From IMG/VR virus record IMGVR_UViG_3300024059_000013, positions 1-37,898 of that record: a stretch of DNA of 37,898 bases; one strand, given 5' to 3'. A model generated the notes under the pieces. The model worked only from the letters and a program-made list of their open reading frames with translations. It did not search any database and had not been told where the DNA came from. Positions 12,196-37,898 of this stretch are shown here, in pieces. The translations under genes and the position numbers were made by a program. The stretch's first letter is position 1; every line of letters starts with the position of its first letter. This DNA is from a virus.

Positions 12196-14291
12196 TGGCT
12201 ACGACAGAAGAAGAACTGTTACAACAATTGGCACAGCTTGAAGCCACTGCTCCGCCGGGTCCGGAACCTGTTCCAATTCCGGAGGAGCAGCAACTGGAAC
12301 TGCGATCAGACATTGCGGCAGCAGGTAAAGAACAAGAGCTGGAAGATATCGCTGCCATGGAGCCTACTCCGATAGACCCGTATGCAGAGGTCGAGAAACG
12401 TTACGAGACGGAGCGGATGTTCATCGATCCGTACGCTCGACTTGCTCCCGGTTATGAACCACCCCCAGAACCTGAATTCCCTAGCCCTTTTCCGATGGAA
12501 CCGGGAACATCACGTGCATCACTTCAGTTGCCTGAGTTAGTGGAGACCGGGACCGGTGCGTTTTTACCCCCAGAGTTACCGGGTTTAGCAAAAGCTGGAA
12601 TCACTGCTGCGATGCTGACGACGACTGATCCGAATGAGATCGCGGAGATGTTTACCCAAACCTACACCGATGACAACGGTGTAGAAACGCCAGTGTTTCC
12701 TAATGTAGGGATAGCAACTGCACCGGATGGCACTCTCATTGTTGCCAATAATAAAACCGGGAAGCAAGCTATCATCAATCGTCCGGGGATTAGTGGCATG
12801 GATATCCTTCAGTTGATGGGACTGGGCACGACGTTTACTCCAGCTGGGCGAGTGTCAGCAATGATGTCAGCACCTGCCCGGTCACTGGCTGCAAAAGCTG
12901 CGACAGAGACAGCTAAAAAACTGGCACTGAAAACAGCAAGGAGACGTGGTGCCGGGACAATGATGGCAGGCTCAGGTGTAACCGAGGCAGCGTTACAAGG
13001 GGGACAAGAATTAGCTGGTGGTTCATTCGATCCGGGTGATGTTGCTCTCAGCACTGTTGCAGGTGCGTTGCCTGACTACGCCCTCGATCCTCTTGTACGT
13101 GCGGGTACCAAACTGCCTGCAGTACTACCTGTAGTAGGACAGAAAGTGGAACAAGTTCTTGCTGCCACCCCCGGTGGTAAGAGCATCATGGATGCATTGA
13201 GGTTCGCAAAAGAAACAGGTCGAAAGATTCAAACTTCGGATGCATTAGCGGAGCACTTGACGCCTGCGATGAATATCTTCTTCAAGATTACAGAGCGTAT
13301 TCCAGTCATGGGTACAGGTGGAGCACGCGTCACGCAGAGAGCCCAACGCGCCGACGCTCTTACTGAGATTGCCGACAAATTTGGCATCGACATTGAAGGG
13401 GAATACGGTAAAGAAGTCATAGAAAGTTTCGTTGATCGAATGATCCTGCGACGGTTCTGGGGAAAAAACGAAGAAGTCTTTCGTTTCAAGCCAAGCAGAA
13501 TGAAAGAAATGTTAAAGCGTGCGTATCAGAAAGAGGGGGAGGAAATTGAGTCAGAGATTCTCAGCCGTTACATTCGCAAGGGGAAAATCAACGAAGACAT
13601 TGTAGACACAGTACTGGATGCTGGTAACACCAAACAGCTGAGCGAGATGCTGAACAAACTGCTACCTGAAGGTAAAGAAGCTGCCAAACAGCGCTTCATA
13701 GCCAGAGGATTGGAGCGGGCAGGCTGGACACCAGAAGCCCCCATCAATGCAGACCCCTCTAAGTTCATGGCATATCTCAACAGTCCTTCAGCCCGCAAAG
13801 TCATCAAGACTATGTTCGATGAAGTTGATCAGGATGTCTTGGTTGGTGCCAAAGAATACCTGCGACTTACTCTTCCTGCACAGACGGCTGGCAAGGGTGC
13901 AGGTATGGCTGCAGCAATGGCAGGTGGTGCAGGTTTTGCAATAGGTATTCTTGATGCGGTGGTAGGTGCCGGTTTCCTAATGGGGCGTAGTGGTGCAGTA
14001 ATGCAAAGTGCCACGGCACGAAACTTCTTGTTGAAAATGGCTCATGCAAAAGGTGATGAGAAATTAACCGCATCAATCATGGCAGAGGCGCGACCATATT
14101 TCGTAGCTCTAGAGAATCAATGGAAGCAGGAGAATTGGGAGTTGCCTTCGATGGAAGTCACGCAAGATATGCTCATGGAAGAAGGCACCAGCGCAATGGA
14201 TGCATTGAAAGCAAGAGGTATAGAAGTGGGTGAACAAATCATGACTGCTCCGCAACGTTTAATGCAAATGCTGGGGGGTGGCGAAGAGTAA
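12195..14291 (+). CDS. Large internal virion / ejection protein with two hydrophobic Gly/Ala segments
   Basis: This 698-residue protein starts with an acidic, Pro-rich, probably disordered region (about 1-115). A helical, Ala-rich section follows at about 200-300 (ARSLAAKAATETAKKLALK), then a charged helical domain at about 360-550, and a strongly hydrophobic Gly/Ala stretch near 573-600 (MAAAMAGGAGFAIGI, VVGAGFLMGRSG). That organisation suits a protein that crosses or fuses with the cell envelope during ejection. The ATG overlaps the previous stop by one base, and its stop abuts the small terminase start. No lytic transglycosylase signature was seen. Confidence 0.65.
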   Translation: MATTEEELLQQLAQLEATAPPGPEPVPIPEEQQLELRSDIAAAGKEQELEDIAAMEPTPIDPYAEVEKRYETERMFIDPYARLAPGYEPPPEPEFPSPFPMEPGTSRASLQLPELVETGTGAFLPPELPGLAKAGITAAMLTTTDPNEIAEMFTQTYTDDNGVETPVFPNVGIATAPDGTLIVANNKTGKQAIINRPGISGMDILQLMGLGTTFTPAGRVSAMMSAPARSLAAKAATETAKKLALKTARRRGAGTMMAGSGVTEAALQGGQELAGGSFDPGDVALSTVAGALPDYALDPLVRAGTKLPAVLPVVGQKVEQVLAATPGGKSIMDALRFAKETGRKIQTSDALAEHLTPAMNIFFKITERIPVMGTGGARVTQRAQRADALTEIADKFGIDIEGEYGKEVIESFVDRMILRRFWGKNEEVFRFKPSRMKEMLKRAYQKEGEEIESEILSRYIRKGKINEDIVDTVLDAGNTKQLSEMLNKLLPEGKEAAKQRFIARGLERAGWTPEAPINADPSKFMAYLNSPSARKVIKTMFDEVDQDVLVGAKEYLRLTLPAQTAGKGAGMAAAMAGGAGFAIGILDAVVGAGFLMGRSGAVMQSATARNFLLKMAHAKGDEKLTASIMAEARPYFVALENQWKQENWELPSMEVTQDMLMEEGTSAMDALKARGIEVGEQIMTAPQRLMQMLGGGEE

Positions 14292-14875
14292 TGCCTGCAC
14301 GACGACTGACAAACGGGAAGAAGAGACAGTTTGTGCGTAACAACGCAGGACATCTGCTGGCTGAACAACACCGTCTGTTTCTCCCTGAACACCTCGATCA
14401 GGTGCGTGCGATTGCAATGCGAGGCATCAGTGAAGAACAGATGTCCGAAATCTTTGACATCAGTCGCAAGCAGATGGGTAAGTGGAAAGCACAGTACCCG
14501 TTGTTCAAGGACGCGCTCGAAGCAGGTTACACCGACGCTGATGCTGCAGTGCTGGGCGCGTTGTACCAGAGTGCTGTCGGTTACACGCACGACGAAGAGA
14601 AAATTTTTCAGTGGGACGGAGAGATTGTCCGTGCCGAAACGGTTAAGCATTACAAGCCCGACGTGTCAGCAATTAAATTGTGGCTGACCAACCGGCAGAA
14701 AGAAAACTGGAAGGATCGTCATCACACGAACGTGTCTGGTAAGGATGACAACTCGCCCATCGGTATCCGTGACGAGACAAAGATGGAGGTTATCTCCAGC
14801 ATCCTGTCACTGATCAAACCGAAACCAGACAACGTGACCATCGACGGCAGAACGGGAGAGGTGGACGATGGCTGA
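14291..14875 (+). CDS. terS: Small terminase subunit (TerS-like)
   Basis: The 194-residue protein has a helix-turn-helix at about residues 45-68 (GISEEQMSEIFDIS then RKQMGKWKAQYP), followed by a helical oligomerisation region and the typical late block VGYTHDEEKIF, YKPDVSAIKLWL and TNRQKENWKDR (about 97-143). This set is characteristic of phage small terminases, which recognise packaging DNA and load the large subunit. It lies between ejection-protein genes, well away from where a large subunit would be expected, and no large subunit is in the window. It overlaps the next gene by 8 bases. Confidence 0.75.
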   Translation: MPARRLTNGKKRQFVRNNAGHLLAEQHRLFLPEHLDQVRAIAMRGISEEQMSEIFDISRKQMGKWKAQYPLFKDALEAGYTDADAAVLGALYQSAVGYTHDEEKIFQWDGEIVRAETVKHYKPDVSAIKLWLTNRQKENWKDRHHTNVSGKDDNSPIGIRDETKMEVISSILSLIKPKPDNVTIDGRTGEVDDG

Positions 14876-23842: not shown

Positions 23843-24011
23843 CTGGATGCCTCATTACGTCTGCGATGGTTAATGCAACCTCACTGATGAGGATCATCAA
23901 TTGCTGGAGTAAGTGGTCTTCCCCACTGAGTTGCTCACGACGTGCTTCTAGTCGGTCGGCGAACTCTTCCAGCAAGTGTGCTGTCTGTAAATCTTCGTCA
24001 AGCTGCGGCAC
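23829..24011 (-). CDS. Small coiled-coil protein (GTG start)
   Basis: A GTG at 24011 is chosen because GGGGAG lies seven bases upstream and it limits the overlap with the polymerase end to 14 bases; an ATG at 24053 would overlap by 56. The 60-residue product is nearly all helix with heptad-like spacing (LLEEFADRLEARREQL, LLQQLMILISEVALTI). Tight overlaps with the polymerase and nuclease genes suggest a replication accessory or bridging peptide. No family is recognised. Confidence 0.6.
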   Translation of the reverse strand: MPQLDEDLQTAHLLEEFADRLEARREQLSGEDHLLQQLMILISEVALTIADVMRHPDESD

Positions 24012-26505
24012 TATACTTCTCCCCTTTACCCCATGGTCCCAACTCTGCCTCACCTTCCATGGGCACGCTGAGTTTGATTTTGAATGTATCCATCAGCTTC
24101 GGTCGCTCTGCGATCTTTAGCATTTTTGGTACGCACTCATCGATGTACTCATTCTTCACGAGGGTCAGCACTGAGTCGTGGTGCTCGCCAACGAGGCGCA
24201 CTTTCTTGCGCGAGAATGTCTTGTGAATTTCAATCAGGATCATCGCTTTGTAATCCCCGATCATTGCCTGCACCCCTGAGTTGACTGCCTGACGCTCAGC
24301 TTCCATGCGCACCATCTTATCCTTGGCATGGATGCCGGGGAGTCTACGCAATCGACCGGTGAGACATCTTACGTGACCGTTTGCACGTGCCAGTCGTTTC
24401 GTTCGCTTATGCCAATCCTCCAGTCGTGAGTACAGTCGGAAGTATGCGCGACGTGCGTTCTTTGCTTCCTGAAAGCTGGGCTCCCAGCCATAGTCTTTTG
24501 TTGCCTGCTGGATGAACTTTTTCTCATACATACCGTAGATGAAACCAAAGTTCACCGCTTTTGCTCTGGTCCTACCTTCGTACCACTTACCTTCGACTGC
24601 GGTACACGCCTTTGGGCCTGCTTCGAGCAGTCGCTCCAGTGCTGCGGTGTAGTATGCGTATGCTTTTTCGTCGAGCTTCTCAACTGTATCCCACACGAGA
24701 TCGGCGAACTCTCCCTGCGTGCCGACCGATAGCGTTTCTATCAGGGTGCGCCAGTGCACGTCGATGCCCTCGATAAAACATCGTCTCATTTCAGGATCAC
24801 GAGAAAGGTGCGCAGCTACACGCATCTCTGCGGTGGCAATGTCCATGGCGCACAATGTCCAACCGTCGGGTGCAGTAACGAGGTTGCGGATCGATCCGTC
24901 CCGTGGAATAGGATGGAGGGGTGAACTGTAACGCCCGGTGACAGTGCCGTGGATTTTGTAGTCGAAGTAATACTTGTCTTCGATACGATATTTCTGCCAC
25001 CCCTTGATGTATGTGTTGAAAAACTTTCCTGCATTGCGGTACTCCAGAATCTTCTTGACTACCGGTTGGTGGATGATGCTGAGCAAAGCTTCTTCAGATG
25101 TGGACGGTTTCTTTTTCTTGGTAAAAACTTTGCAGCGATATCCCAGCTCTTCATAGAGGAGTTTTGCAATCTGCGCAGGGCTGTCCCAGTTCAATTCATA
25201 TCCTGCGATCCCGTTTAACTCCTCGCGCAGTGTGATCTTCTTTGCGAGCAGTTCCATGCCAATCTCTTTACGCGCAGCAGGATCTATGGTCAGGCCTTCC
25301 ATCTCCGCGTCTTCCATTGCGCGAGCCCCCGGCATCGTCAGCTTCCAGAAGAGACGATGTAGGTTTGGCTCAGCACGTAGCATCTGCTCGAACAGAATGC
25401 CCAACCTGAGCGTGTACGCGCCGTCCTGCCCGCAATATTTGTAGTTCCGCATGGGCTTGTCGCTCTTGCCCTGCTTCTCCTCCAGTGAGATGTCGTACTC
25501 AGGCTCATCGAGGTAGGTGCGGCACAGGCTGGTCAGATCGTGCGCGAGGTTTTCATCGAGCACGTGATGTGCGAGCATGACATCGAAGGTCAGGCGGAAA
25601 GAACCTCCGAACTGGCAGCGCATCCACTTATTATCGAACTTCCCATTTTGTGCGAACGTCTGTTTCTGATCACGATGAGCAATAAAAAACAGCAGCTGCA
25701 TCAATCGACGCAAAGCGTTACCGTGAGCGAAGGGGCTATGGGAAAATTGCTGATACTCCGGATGCATAAAACCCGGAATCACCCACGTCTTGTGGTCAAG
25801 GGCAATCGAAATTGCAGTGATGTACCCATCAGGGTCGAATGGGAAAAGCCCCGATGTCTCGCAGTCAAATGCGAATCGGGGTGCTGCCTCAAACTCTCGG
25901 ATAAAGGTGTCGAGGTTACCTTTGCGCACAACCGACCAGTTGACTGTGTCATCGCGCAAGCCGCCTCCTATGAGTCGGGCGAGGCGGGCGAGATCGTCTT
26001 GAAAGCCGGGGAGCTTCGACGGATCTCGAAGAGTGTACGCTGGATGAAATATTGGCATCCCGATATACGAGACTTTAGGGTTATCAATGACCTCGCCATG
26101 GAATTGGTTGATCTTCGCTTTTCCACGGAACAACGTCTTCGTCGCAGGCACACCCGCGGTGACGACGTAACGGGGCTTTAACGCTGCGAGTTCTTTATCA
26201 AGGTAAGGACGGCATGCTTTGATTTCCGCTGCCGTGGGAGTTCTGTTATTCGGCGGACGACATTTGACGAGGTTGGTGATGTAGGTTTTGCCAGTCAGGT
26301 CATTGCGTTCTAGTTCGTTCCTGAGGATTCGACCTGACTCACCGATGAAAGGTTTGCCCCTTCGATCTTCGTTCGCGCCGGGAGCTTCCCCGATTACGAA
26401 CACCTCAACGTCATCGAGTTTGCGCGGACTGTCCCCGGACATGCATACCGTCCTCGCATTTTCATGGAGGCTGCACTCGGTGCAGTGGGGGTTTAGACTC
26501 GTCAC
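23998..26505 (-). CDS. Uracil-DNA glycosylase (family 4-like) / 3'-5' exonuclease / family A DNA polymerase fusion
   Basis: The 835-residue protein has three parts. Residues 1-180 resemble family 4 uracil-DNA glycosylase: GEAPGANEDRRGKPFIG (39-55), FHPAYTL (153-159), and Cys8, Cys11, Cys82 and Cys98 placed for a 4Fe-4S cluster. Residues 205-370 are a DEDDy exonuclease: Asp214/Glu216, Asp291, Tyr357/Asp361. The rest is polymerase I-like: motif A Asp555/Glu560, motif B Arg645, Lys649, Phe653, Tyr657, and motif C His776-Asp777. All catalytic residues are present. The GTG start is preferred because a later ATG (residue 22) would lose two cluster cysteines. A comparable UDG-polymerase arrangement is, as I recall, known in SPO1-type phages. 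Confidence 0.85.
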   Translation of the reverse strand: MTSLNPHCTECSLHENARTVCMSGDSPRKLDDVEVFVIGEAPGANEDRRGKPFIGESGRILRNELERNDLTGKTYITNLVKCRPPNNRTPTAAEIKACRPYLDKELAALKPRYVVTAGVPATKTLFRGKAKINQFHGEVIDNPKVSYIGMPIFHPAYTLRDPSKLPGFQDDLARLARLIGGGLRDDTVNWSVVRKGNLDTFIREFEAAPRFAFDCETSGLFPFDPDGYITAISIALDHKTWVIPGFMHPEYQQFSHSPFAHGNALRRLMQLLFFIAHRDQKQTFAQNGKFDNKWMRCQFGGSFRLTFDVMLAHHVLDENLAHDLTSLCRTYLDEPEYDISLEEKQGKSDKPMRNYKYCGQDGAYTLRLGILFEQMLRAEPNLHRLFWKLTMPGARAMEDAEMEGLTIDPAARKEIGMELLAKKITLREELNGIAGYELNWDSPAQIAKLLYEELGYRCKVFTKKKKPSTSEEALLSIIHQPVVKKILEYRNAGKFFNTYIKGWQKYRIEDKYYFDYKIHGTVTGRYSSPLHPIPRDGSIRNLVTAPDGWTLCAMDIATAEMRVAAHLSRDPEMRRCFIEGIDVHWRTLIETLSVGTQGEFADLVWDTVEKLDEKAYAYYTAALERLLEAGPKACTAVEGKWYEGRTRAKAVNFGFIYGMYEKKFIQQATKDYGWEPSFQEAKNARRAYFRLYSRLEDWHKRTKRLARANGHVRCLTGRLRRLPGIHAKDKMVRMEAERQAVNSGVQAMIGDYKAMILIEIHKTFSRKKVRLVGEHHDSVLTLVKNEYIDECVPKMLKIAERPKLMDTFKIKLSVPMEGEAELGPWGKGEKYSAAA

Positions 26506-26665: not shown

Positions 26666-28771
26666 ATGGCACAGAATAAAGCAGGGTTTGATCCAACGCA
26701 AACAGCAAAGTATTGGCTGGAAAAAAAGGTCTACACGGTACCTCTCCGGAGTAGATCAAAGCGACCAAAATCAACGAATTGGCCTCATCTCCGACTGGTC
26801 GAGGACGATCTCGAAAACGGCGCTTTCAAGCTGGGAGATAACATCGGTGCGCTCTGGGGGGACGCTTCTGACCATGCTGTGGATGTCGATCTGGACATGG
26901 AAGAAGCGATCTGGGTAGCTGACTACATCCTCCCCGAGACCTTCGTATACGGGCGCACAGGCAAGGAGCGCTCACACTACGTATACAAGGTCATGGGTGC
27001 CCAGACTCGCAAGTGGCAGGTGCAGGAACTGGGCACCATCATCGAGATCAGGTCCACAGGAGCACAGTCTGTCATCCCCCCGTCCCGGCATCCTGAGGGC
27101 GGCATCTACTGCACCGACGAGGATGAGGATTTCACACAGCTGACCAAGCTGGACCTCGAACGGTTCGCTGATGAGATTGCTGTCGCTTCCGTGTTTGTCC
27201 ACCATTATCCAGAGTCAGGTTCGCGCCACGATTATGTGCACGCATGCACAGGTGCGCTCTGTCATCAGGAGTGGCCCGATGAAAAGATCGGACGCGTCAT
27301 GGAGGCAGTCCTCAATATCATCCAAGAAGAAGAGGACGAGATCAGTGACCGGGTGAATGCCGTGCGCAACACTGTCGAGCATCACAAGGCAGGTGATCGC
27401 ACAAAAGGATTCACGTCACTCGAAGCATGGATAAGCATGCCTGTGATTGCTGCGCTTAAACGGTGGTCAACAGCAGGGAAGATGGAAGGCAAGCTGGTGC
27501 TGACACCACCGAACTTGAAACCTGAGCCGTCACGGTTAGCGTTCGATGAATCTCTTTTAGAGGTACCGGGGCTGGTAGGGGACATTACAAAATGGGCTAA
27601 CCGCGAATCGTTTATTGATCAACCTATCTTCGGACTGGCGACCGGACTCACATGCACTGCACTGGCGACATGTAATCACTACCTCGTAGAAAGTTGGGAC
27701 ACACCTCTGCAACCCTACATGATGATCACTGCACCGACTGGCGGAGGGAAAGACACATGTCATCGTTCGGTCGCAAAGTTCGCGCTCAAGCTTGGGCTCG
27801 ATGAAGCTGTCATTCAACACTTTCAATCTTACTACGCGATGCTCGATCACTTAGGTGAAGAAGGTATCGGGTGCTGGTTGTGGGATGAAGCTGCTCGTTA
27901 CATGGCGAGCGCAAAGAAACCCAGTTCGACAGATTTTCAAACACTCAGTCACGTCATCTCCCTTTACGGCTCAGCTAACAAATTCGTTCCCGGCGCACCG
28001 GGACGCAACCGAGCCATTCCACCGCTGGATAATCCTTTCCTCGTTGTCTGCGCTACTGCGCAACCTGAGATGCTGATGGAGGCACTGACTAGCGCTGCGC
28101 AGGAGACTGGTTTCGTAAATCGATTCTTACTCTTCGACACAGGCGTCGAATACCACGGTGTCAACCAGAGGCGCAGTCATGTCTTCCCTTCTGCAATCAG
28201 CAAGCAGGCAAAACTCCTGCGTGATCATGAACCGATGGACGGTGACTTCACTCAAATTAAGTTCGCAGATACACGGACGTTCACTTCATTCCAAGAGTTC
28301 GAAGAGGCATCACGTCGTCGAGCAATGGGGGGACAACATACGTGGAGCCGAGCGAATCAAAACGCATTAATTCTGGCAGGCATCGCAGCTGTCGGTGCCG
28401 ATGCACGTCGTCCTATTATTGATATCGATCTGGGTAAGTGGGCAATTCAACTCGTAACATGGAGCAATGATTGCTGGGATGAAAAGCTACGCATGACAGC
28501 TGCGAGTGACAGCTACACCGAGAAAGATTCATTCAAGATCGAACGCATCATCAACAACCCTTTTAAGTACGCTGAACAAAAAGCTAACTCCACACCACAA
28601 CGCATCCTACTCAGGGAAGGCTTCACCCCTCACAGTGTAATCACTCGCAACACTCGCGGCCTCGATGCAAAAAGACGCACACAAATTCTCGATGACCTGC
28701 ATGAAGCAGGACTAGTTGGTTCGACCGAAAAGAACGATCAAGTCGTGTATTTCCCGCACGCTCCCAAATAG
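26666..28771 (+). CDS. Primase-polymerase (PrimPol-like) / helicase fusion
   Basis: The 701-residue protein begins with a PrimPol-type domain: KVYTVPLRSRSKRPKS (21-36), AVDVDLD with Asp73/Asp75 as metal ligands, RSHYVYKV with His104, and IIEIRSTGAQSVIPPS (125-140). A P-loop ATPase follows, with APTGGGKD (356-363) and Walker B WLWDEAA (Asp407, Glu408), and an Arg-containing GFVNRFLLF that may act in trans. The C-terminus looks like a winged helix. Such proteins prime and unwind at phage replication forks. It is divergent from the polymerase fusion, so the two replication arms share a control region. The helicase part could alternatively belong to the DUF3987-like group. Confidence 0.75.
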   Translation: MAQNKAGFDPTQTAKYWLEKKVYTVPLRSRSKRPKSTNWPHLRLVEDDLENGAFKLGDNIGALWGDASDHAVDVDLDMEEAIWVADYILPETFVYGRTGKERSHYVYKVMGAQTRKWQVQELGTIIEIRSTGAQSVIPPSRHPEGGIYCTDEDEDFTQLTKLDLERFADEIAVASVFVHHYPESGSRHDYVHACTGALCHQEWPDEKIGRVMEAVLNIIQEEEDEISDRVNAVRNTVEHHKAGDRTKGFTSLEAWISMPVIAALKRWSTAGKMEGKLVLTPPNLKPEPSRLAFDESLLEVPGLVGDITKWANRESFIDQPIFGLATGLTCTALATCNHYLVESWDTPLQPYMMITAPTGGGKDTCHRSVAKFALKLGLDEAVIQHFQSYYAMLDHLGEEGIGCWLWDEAARYMASAKKPSSTDFQTLSHVISLYGSANKFVPGAPGRNRAIPPLDNPFLVVCATAQPEMLMEALTSAAQETGFVNRFLLFDTGVEYHGVNQRRSHVFPSAISKQAKLLRDHEPMDGDFTQIKFADTRTFTSFQEFEEASRRRAMGGQHTWSRANQNALILAGIAAVGADARRPIIDIDLGKWAIQLVTWSNDCWDEKLRMTAASDSYTEKDSFKIERIINNPFKYAEQKANSTPQRILLREGFTPHSVITRNTRGLDAKRRTQILDDLHEAGLVGSTEKNDQVVYFPHAPK

Positions 28772-28777
28772 CATAGA

Positions 28778-28787
28778 ATTATGTTAA
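28778..28787 (-). repeat. Motif TTAACATAAT, inverted copy
   Basis: The sequence ATTATGTTAA here is the exact reverse complement of a 10-base motif that occurs twice upstream of the UvrD-like helicase promoter (34276-34285 and 34292-34301). It lies about 40 bases upstream of the -35 of the 28827 promoter. The shared placement in promoter regions suggests a regulator binding site. Confidence 0.35.
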
Positions 28788-28826
28788 ATACTAAGTGATT
28801 GATTTATAAGGTTTTTTTGCCTCTCC

Positions 28827-28855
28827 TTTACACAGCAGCACTGCCGTGATAAAAT
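28827..28855 (+). promoter_or_regulatory. Sigma70-like promoter for the small early-gene operon
   Basis: TTTACA (28827-28832) and TAAAAT (28850-28855) are 17 bases apart, each matching the consensus in five of six positions. The predicted start is near 28862, about 36 bases before the first gene. A 7-bp inverted repeat overlaps the -10 and start site. Confidence 0.65.
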
Positions 28856-28869
28856 GAATTTCATTCATT
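28853..28869 (+). promoter_or_regulatory. Palindromic operator candidate at the 28827 promoter
   Basis: AATGAAT (28853-28859) and ATTCATT (28863-28869) are perfect inverted repeats around three bases. They cover the end of the -10 and the predicted start site, where a repressor dimer would block RNA polymerase. No repressor gene is obvious in the window. Confidence 0.45.
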
Positions 28870-28897
28870 ATACAGGCACACGCAAAAGGAGCACGAC

Positions 28898-29200
28898 ATG
28901 GCAAAGACCCAGACACAAGACCTGACCAAGCTTGCCGATGAACTCGGCAGCATTCGCGCACACATGGCTGACCTGAAAGATCGCGAGAAAGAGATTCGCG
29001 AGACCTTCATCGAAGCCGGTGTGACCGCTCTCGAAGGCGAGAGCTTCCGCGCACTGGTAGTGGAGTCAATCCGCACCCTGATCGACTGGAAGGCAGTCGC
29101 TGCGAAACTGGAGCCCAGCCGTCAGTTGGTCACCGCGCACACGACCGAGAAGGAAGTCATCTCGATCCGTGTCAATGCACGCCGAGGAGGATCGGCGTGA
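28898..29200 (+). CDS. Hypothetical early protein: coiled coil plus C-terminal small domain
   Basis: This 100-residue protein is preceded by an AAAAGGAGCACGAC ribosome site, the form repeated before several genes in this arm. The first ~45 residues form a coiled coil (LADELGSIRAHMADLKDREKEIRETF), and the rest a small mixed domain (FRALVVESIRTLIDW). Such short helical-hairpin proteins are common as the first gene of phage early operons. No family is recognised. Confidence 0.65.
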   Translation: MAKTQTQDLTKLADELGSIRAHMADLKDREKEIRETFIEAGVTALEGESFRALVVESIRTLIDWKAVAAKLEPSRQLVTAHTTEKEVISIRVNARRGGSA

Positions 29201-37211: not shown

Positions 37212-37484
37212 ATGAGTAACGCAGCAAACACGACGGGAAAATACGAGGTCAAAGAGACCGTGATTTACGGTTACAAACTGGAGCTGGAACTGTTCGAAGA
37301 GCAAGGCGACGAGCGCTCCGATTGCAGTGTGACGCGGACGGTAAACGGGCAAGAGTTCGGCGGATCACTGGGCATGTTGATGGGGTTCGGTACGCTCGAA
37401 GACTATCAAACTGGCGATGAGTACGTGGTATCCGACACGCATCAAAAGGCGATTATAAAGTGGGCGGAGGAGAACGGGTACTGA
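37212..37484 (+). CDS. Hypothetical protein; last gene of the plus-strand arm
   Basis: The ATG follows a GGGAGCACAA ribosome site. The 90-residue product has a strand start (YEVKETVIYGYKLELELFEE), a Gly-rich middle (QEFGGSLGMLMGFG) and a helical end. It is followed by a terminator. The bases flanking the gene are repeated beyond the terminator (TACACGGGAGCACAA and CGCGCAGACTT), as if the gene had once been duplicated or inserted as a cassette. No family is recognised. Confidence 0.6.
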   Translation: MSNAANTTGKYEVKETVIYGYKLELELFEEQGDERSDCSVTRTVNGQEFGGSLGMLMGFGTLEDYQTGDEYVVSDTHQKAIIKWAEENGY

Positions 37485-37516
37485 TAAAACTCGCGCAGAC
37501 TTTTAGATCCGAGAAG

Positions 37517-37544
37517 GGCGCGCACATGTTGCGCGTCTTTTTTT
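37517..37544 (+). terminator. Rho-independent terminator closing the plus-strand arm
   Basis: GGCGCGCA (37517-37524) pairs with TGCGCGTC (37530-37537), with one G-T pair, around the loop CATGT, and seven T follow (37538-37544). Confidence 0.9.
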
Positions 37545-37556
37545 GTGCGTTACTGT

Positions 37557-37586
37557 TACACGGGAGCACAATATCCGCGCAGACTT
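37557..37586 (+). repeat. Second copy of the two sequences that flank the 37212 gene
   Basis: TACACGGGAGCACAA (37557-37571) repeats 37192-37206, and CGCGCAGACTT (37576-37586) repeats 37492-37502. Around the gene they lie 285 bases apart; here they are four bases apart with no gene between. This is consistent with a duplicated cassette that lost its gene. Confidence 0.6.
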
Positions 37587-37601
37587 ATAAAACGGGCTCG
37601 C

Positions 37602-37834
37602 GATTGCAGGAGGATTGCAGCACGATTGTTTTTTAAGTGTATGATTAAGAAGGCGATTGCAGGATTGCAGGGATTGCAGAGTAAAAGAGAGGTAGAGGGG
37701 AAAAGGGAAAGGGTTGCAGAGGTAGTATATAACTCACTCACTCTATACAATCCTGCAATCCTACAATCCTGTTACTAACTTACTGATATATATACTCGCA
37801 TCGCGATTGCAAAAATACAATCCTCAAACAATCC
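37602..37834. repeat. GATTGCAG iteron cluster in a gene-free region (origin or packaging-site candidate)
   Basis: GATTGCAG occurs at 37602-37609, 37613-37620, 37655-37662, 37663-37670 and 37672-37679. An inverted copy CTGCAATC lies at 37753-37760, flanked by partial CAATCC copies at 37748-37753 and 37764-37769. Further partial copies are GATTGC at 37805-37810 and CAATCC at 37818-37823 and 37829-37834. A purine-rich run (37680-37713) and AT-rich stretches (37629-37650, 37723-37735, 37772-37796) separate the direct and inverted arrays. The 414-base stretch 37485-37898 has no supported gene. Iterons beside AT-rich DNA are typical of replication origins; a terminase recognition site is the main alternative. 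Confidence 0.6.
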
Positions 37835-37898
37835 GCATAGGTAAGCCATTCCCGTGGGTTGCGTAGCCGTGTAACGCGCAGTGCAAAACAGATCCGGT

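Follow-up and report, generated by a model that had tools for sequence, protein, structure and literature searches.

The window analysed here, 37,898 bases long, is a linear record of the IMG/VR virus collection and represents part of the genome of a phage, an uncultivated bacterial virus. From 1 to 17.7 kb the plus strand carries phage genes, structural for the most part. A replication block on the minus strand (17.7-26.5 kb) encodes an exonuclease, an AAA protein, a SNF2-type helicase and a PolA-family polymerase, and an early-type operon on the plus strand, starting at 26.7 kb, contains a PrimPol-DUF3987 protein and a UvrD-type helicase. By sequence, the N-terminal part of the polymerase (gene at 23998-26505, minus strand) resembles a uracil-DNA-glycosylase-type domain fused to PolA. 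The best match to this polymerase in the GenBank phage collection has 40% identity, and blastn found no DNA match to the window there, indicating that the collection holds no close relative. A small terminase gene (terS, phrog_309) is located at 14291-14875; no large terminase (terL) was identified within the window, and one was found in relatives. Piecing contigs together suggests a full genome of ~65-70 kb.

The longest stretch of the window left gene-free by a codon-usage gene caller is 37485-37898. Two ORFs of 77 aa (plus strand) and 64 aa (minus strand) in this stretch were ignored by the caller, in agreement with an earlier, sequence-only reading that saw no credible ORF here. That reading had described five direct copies and one inverted copy of the 8-bp word GATTGCAG, together with partial copies. 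This observation was confirmed: exact copies start at 37602, 37613, 37655, 37663 and 37672 on the plus strand, one lies at 37753-37760 on the minus strand, and about seven partial iterons are found at 37624, 37710, 37746, 37762, 37805, 37816 and 37828. The array proved more ordered than had been described, with boxes in the order A, B, purine-rich tract, C, AT-rich segment, D and a 60-bp distal segment. The features considered below are:

26666-28771, plus strand: PrimPol-DUF3987 helicase (Pfam PF09250, PF13148) with a putative C-terminal winged-helix-like domain; candidate initiator
37515-37543, plus strand: Rho-independent terminator-like hairpin and T run (terminator scan), terminating the rightward operon, whose last ORF has 90 aa (37212-37484)
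37602-37628, plus strand: A box, direct iterons 11 bp apart start-to-start, two of them exact and the third partial (GATTG)
37629-37652: A-B spacer, AT-rich in the window
37653-37679, plus strand: B box, GCGATTGCAG-GATTGCAG-GGATTGCAG, three contiguous direct iterons at 8-9 bp
37680-37729, plus strand: polypurine tract, strand-asymmetric; partial iteron at 37711 (GGGTTGCAG)
37746-37769, minus strand: C box, TACAATCC-TGCAATCC-TACAATCC, three inverted units following a CT-rich stretch
37757-37802: AT-rich low-stability segment with a conserved TACTGATA, overlapping the end of the C box; candidate DNA-unwinding element
37803-37836: D box, GCGATTGCA (plus strand), then inverted TACAATCC (37816-37823) and ACAATCC (37828-37834)
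37837-37897: distal conserved non-coding segment

Across the whole window GATTGCAG occurs 10 times versus 2.06 expected, a number reached in none of 100 shuffles. The gene-free stretch itself contains six copies; Markov shuffles of the stretch had none in 1964 of 2000 cases and one in the other 36. The start-to-start spacings of the direct copies are 11, (11), 31, 8 and 9 bp, with the partial copy in brackets. Thus, three direct copies ~11 bp apart (one of them partial) are followed by three at steps of 8-9 bp. The earlier suggestion of a spacing close to one helical turn therefore holds for the first cluster (11 bp), but not for the later copies (8-9 and 31 bp). The inverted units are mostly TACAATCC, an imperfect complement of GGATTGCAG, and form an exact 8-bp tandem at 37746-37769.

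The flank preceding the array contains duplicated sequence. The motif CGCGCAGACTT(T/A)TA found after the stop codon (37492) is repeated at 37576, and the gene-leader sequence TACACGGGAGCACAA (37192) recurs at 37557 with no gene behind it. From its sequence, the duplicated flank (37485-37600) looks like a lost gene cassette.

Conservation of the array in related phages

A helicase search returned eight contigs of at least 69% helicase identity (over most or part of the length) that share the gene set, plus shorter or more distant ones. Eight relative contigs were fetched and mapped, two of which (G008 and G009) stop before the array site. In the close relative G001 (locus L002) the array is located at the same place, with iterons at +0, 11, 22, 53, 61 and 201 and inverted units at +150 and +157. 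The corresponding positions in the window are +0, 11, (22), 53, 61, 70 and 203, and 144, 152 and 160. The A box of L002 has three exact copies with the spacing of the window (11, 11), and the terminator has a counterpart at the same place; a similar hairpin with T run was read by eye in L003, L004, L005 and L007. In the divergent relative G005 (locus L006) the array has a similar box order and lies after a DUF7227-like gene, not before it. It has three exact direct iterons and several with one mismatch, and C-box units TACAATTA/TACAATTG; none of 1000 shuffles scored as high as its alignment to the window and L002 elements (z 4.8 to 8.7).

Both L002 and L006 have counterparts of the C box and retain GCGATTGCA of the D box. 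The A-B spacer measures ~24 bp in the window, ~20 bp in L002 and ~47 bp in L006, where it is not AT-rich. The 60 bp from 37670 are 82% purine; the L006 counterpart is pyrimidine-rich on this strand. Identity between the window and L002 is 64-76% in the iteron boxes, 50-60% in the A-B spacer and purine tract, 73% in the AT-rich segment and 84% in the distal segment, with 80-83% in coding genes, a pattern that would be expected of a selected DNA site. No other non-coding region of the window is as long as the one that contains the array, and the same is true of G001, where the gap was overstated by a missed conserved gene; its gap in G005 is among the longest of that contig (495 versus 528 bases). 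Because two relatives keep the same layout, we consider the array to be a real control site.

The array is missing at the locus in G002, G003, G004 and G006, in which TTTAACATAAT boxes and a promoter of sigma-70 type come directly after the terminator. These four contigs encode an orthologous polymerase (74-78% identity), PrimPol (61-73%) and terS. Apart from coding-type repeats, the array-less contigs, which miss roughly 10 kb of genome or more, showed no iteron cluster elsewhere. In all, two relatives (G001 and G005) keep the array and four lack it at the locus; the G005 contig does not cover its replication genes.

Further copies of the element were sought more widely. In the whole viral collection (2.9 million contigs) the B-box core GCGATTGCAGRATTGCAR was found only in G001 and G005, apart from two chance matches in coding sequence, and a pattern search of viral contigs with the distal segment returned G001 only. 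Scans of viral and genome contigs for three copies of GATTGCAG gave, among the matches listed, mostly heptanucleotide-type microsatellites and coding repeats of regular period, and the present layout was not found among them. Plasmid and phage record collections gave no blastn match to the element. Searches based on the helicase alignment, the DUF7227-like neighbour and a 345-aa protein of the window (see below) produced no further array, the last returning known contigs only. As far as seen, the array would thus be confined to a small phage group, of which the region is, judged by these comparisons, a real, selected and sequence-specific cis site.

The different gene context of the L006 copy and the missing array at the locus in close relatives would also suit a small mobile (MITE-like) element, as would the near-perfect 17-bp terminal inverted repeats of L006 (ATGAGCGATTGCAGGAT/ATCCTGCAATCGCTAGT). 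However, the elements of the window and L002 lack comparable end repeats, no copies were found elsewhere in viral contigs by the pattern searches, and blastn gave no match in the plasmid and phage records; we consider such an origin of the array highly improbable.

The sequence-only reading had also considered a terminase-binding packaging site at the border of the early arm. A pac or cos site would suit the proximity of the array to the contig end and the presence of a small terminase gene. Position 37898 was rejected as a genome end: it is an assembly end, and G001 continues 6 kb beyond the equivalent site. In relatives whose contigs run through the site it is internal; terS is 23 kb away, terL starts ~10 kb past the array in G005, and the four relatives lacking the array at the locus have orthologous terS. 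The array is therefore neither at or near terminase genes nor at a genome end, and of all the readings weighed here packaging is the least credible.

Folding, duplex stability and strand composition

The direct and inverted arrays could pair as a long imperfect hairpin, acting either as a structured RNA or as a stem-loop origin like that of the pRN1 PrimPol-winged-helix replicons, which use a large stem-loop (PMC4234260). The potential for the cruciform proposed earlier is indeed present: in each of the three genomes the element folds better as RNA than dinucleotide-shuffled sequence does (z -2.6, -3.4 and -4.1), and the window element reaches z -2.6 as RNA, -3.5 on the other strand and -1.9 as DNA. 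One compensating pair was found in L002, between GATTGTTG of B3 and AACAATCC of C1. However, good folding follows from inverted copies in any array, the predicted L006 fold lacks the B-C stem, a C.A mismatch is retained in most units, and there is no promoter directly upstream. A known structured RNA was rejected, as no Rfam match was obtained. Only one in nine C-box units of the three genomes perfectly complements GATTGCAG; the other eight, mostly of TACAATCC type, would fit direct recognition of the sites better than selection for a hairpin. We therefore rank a hairpin or RNA below direct protein recognition and regard it as a rather unlikely account of the array.

As the sequence-only reading had noted, AT-rich stretches adjoin the repeats. 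The segment beside the C box has the second-lowest duplex stability of the window over both 40 and 100 bp (120.8 over 100 bp; window mean 144.5, sd 6.1). The equivalent segment is the weakest in G005 (115.8; mean 147.6) and also in the 40-52 kb piece of G001. Thus, two features looked for in an iteron-type origin, at least three short direct repeats in a non-coding region and an adjoining AT-rich, easily melted segment, are both present. Since intergenic DNA is commonly AT-rich, low stability is taken as supporting and not as decisive. The stability minimum of the window, and of the equivalent G001 piece, lies in the intergenic region 3' of the PrimPol gene (28771-28898), where a T run and one TTAACATAAT box are found. 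This region has no iterons, and only its melting would make it a second origin candidate.

GC skew showed no change at the locus of the kind that the sequence-only reading had proposed to look for: there is no lasting sign change across the array, and the skew is similar in the array-less G003. Since skew mainly follows gene direction and a switch is not seen at every phage origin, a change in strand composition would support an origin but does not define one. For the origin reading, GC skew is at best uninformative and at worst unfavourable.

Promoters and candidate binding proteins

The array could alternatively serve as an operator or enhancer, its iterons being bound by a phage or host regulator of the early operon that begins a few hundred bp downstream. 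In L002 it is situated between the terminator and the promoters of this next operon (13678 and 13857), in L006 it is likewise intergenic and upstream of further early-type genes, and its lack in some relatives would be expected of an accessory control element. On the other hand, the nearest strong promoter in L002 is ~170 bp past the conserved segment, the array-less relatives have a consensus sigma-70 promoter before the next operon, and the array itself contains no promoter-like match except for one weak reverse match in L006. We rank an operator array next after an origin and consider it unlikely.

A separate dispersed box, TTTAACATAAT/TTGACATAAT, recurs in the intergenic DNA of the group, often paired just upstream of an early promoter or of the UvrD helicase gene:

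Window 34276 and 34292 (plus strand) and 28778 (minus strand); L002 13618-13853; L003 12334 and 12350; L004 11729 and 11755; L005 12980-13084; L007 12038 and 12064: TTTAACATAAT/TTGACATAAT boxes

The exact form TTAACATAAT is present three times in the window versus 0.035 expected, and the box is a candidate operator or regulon box on the basis of its sequence and placement.

Iteron arrays also serve in plasmid partition, and an array that is not universal in its group would be compatible with a centromere-like or other nucleoprotein site that is not for initiation. No ParA/ParB-type gene was detected among the scanned genes, a subset of the total, and we view this alternative as improbable.

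Two proteins were weighed as binders of the array. The PrimPol-DUF3987 protein, encoded 9 kb from the array, gave a poor model overall (mean pLDDT 47), with residues 620-700 at pLDDT 77-90. Many of the Foldseek matches listed for this C-terminal part are winged-helix proteins, none of them significant (E above 0.3). Over its last 41 residues the protein shares 88% identity with G001, 93% with G008 and 32-71% with the others. The second candidate is the function-unassigned 345-aa protein (gene at 30972-32009), which is common to the window, G001 and G008 and was not detected in G002, G003, G004, G006 and G009. Its C-terminal part has a weak match to phrog_10678; no PDB relative was found, and the model (mean pLDDT 32) was unusable.

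A putative iteron-type origin and its relation to known systems

Taken together, the array is best explained as a conserved site on dsDNA at which a protein docks sequence-specifically; we tentatively regard it as an iteron-type replication origin, to which a phage initiator would bind. This initiator may be the PrimPol-helicase with its C-terminal winged helix. The repeat count beyond chance, the conserved box order and spacing, the low-stability segment, the non-coding location and the replication genes encoded by the window (PolA-family polymerase, PrimPol-helicase, SNF2-type and UvrD-type helicases, exonuclease) fit this explanation. Of the initiator- or terminase-binding site proposed by the sequence-only reading, the initiator half thus accords with the ordered repeats, the unwinding-like segment and the two relatives, but the terminase half fails. 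The strongest objection to an origin is the missing array at the locus in four relatives with orthologous replication genes; the lack of a GC-skew switch, the 9 kb between the site and the PrimPol gene and the poor whole PrimPol model also count against it. We infer that protein would bind the array, that the binder may be the PrimPol-winged-helix protein or alternatively another protein, and that replication most likely starts here.

In such an origin, copies of the phage initiator would bind the GATTGCA-type iterons of the A and B clusters and, in inverted orientation, those of C and D. The assembled complexes would face each other over the polypurine tract, and the AT-rich segment beside the C box would melt. 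The phage helicase/PrimPol machinery would next load and prime, with extension by the family-A DNA polymerase of the phage. A bolder version, which we consider doubtful, is a new origin design: opposed clusters with distinct units, GATTGCAG and GGATTGTA, would flank the polypurine tract and melting segment and be read directly by the PrimPol-helicase-winged helix protein. One polypeptide would then recognise, melt and prime a dsDNA origin away from its own gene, and sister phages with orthologous enzymes would start elsewhere.

To our knowledge, few origins of PrimPol-encoding phages have been mapped. The presence of the array in some members of the group, and its lack at the same place in others, would make recognition of the site by an initiator directly testable, and a compact conserved array could provide a marker for origins in uncultivated phages.

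Known systems share individual features with the array. The pRN1 replicons and phage BIP-1 have a replication protein of similar domain order and a foldable inverted-repeat region; in the protein of the window the PrimPol and DUF3987 domains are present, and the winged helix is suggested by the C-terminal model segment only (Foldseek E above 0.3). The stem-loop origin of pRN1 and BIP-1 is located directly 3' of the replication gene and has no iterons (PMC4234260). A stem-loop of this type was rejected for the window, as the DNA just 3' of PrimPol (28760-28900) has no unusual fold (z -0.61). For the PrimPol of phage NrS-1, the 8-nt word TTTGGTTA was proposed as a specific initiation site (PMC8718748), with only two copies per genome (PMC7102993). 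This enzyme shows that a PrimPol can depend on an 8-nt word (PMC8718748, PMC7102993), but NrS-1 has no array and the words are unrelated. The PLE satellite of Vibrio cholerae requires for its replication RepA_N iterons in a large non-coding region (PMC7145576). The location of the present repeats is similar, whereas iteron sequence and layout differ and no RepA_N protein was identified in the phage. The lambdoid origins (lambda, Stx phages) contain O-protein iterons, short repeats recognised as a set beside an AT-rich segment (PMC7466680). These iterons number 4-6 and lie inside the initiator gene. The 8-bp repeats of the window, by contrast, are in a gene-free region 9 kb away from the candidate initiator and form direct and inverted clusters that oppose each other around a purine tract. 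Both systems belong to dsDNA phages and have several short repeats beside an AT-rich segment.
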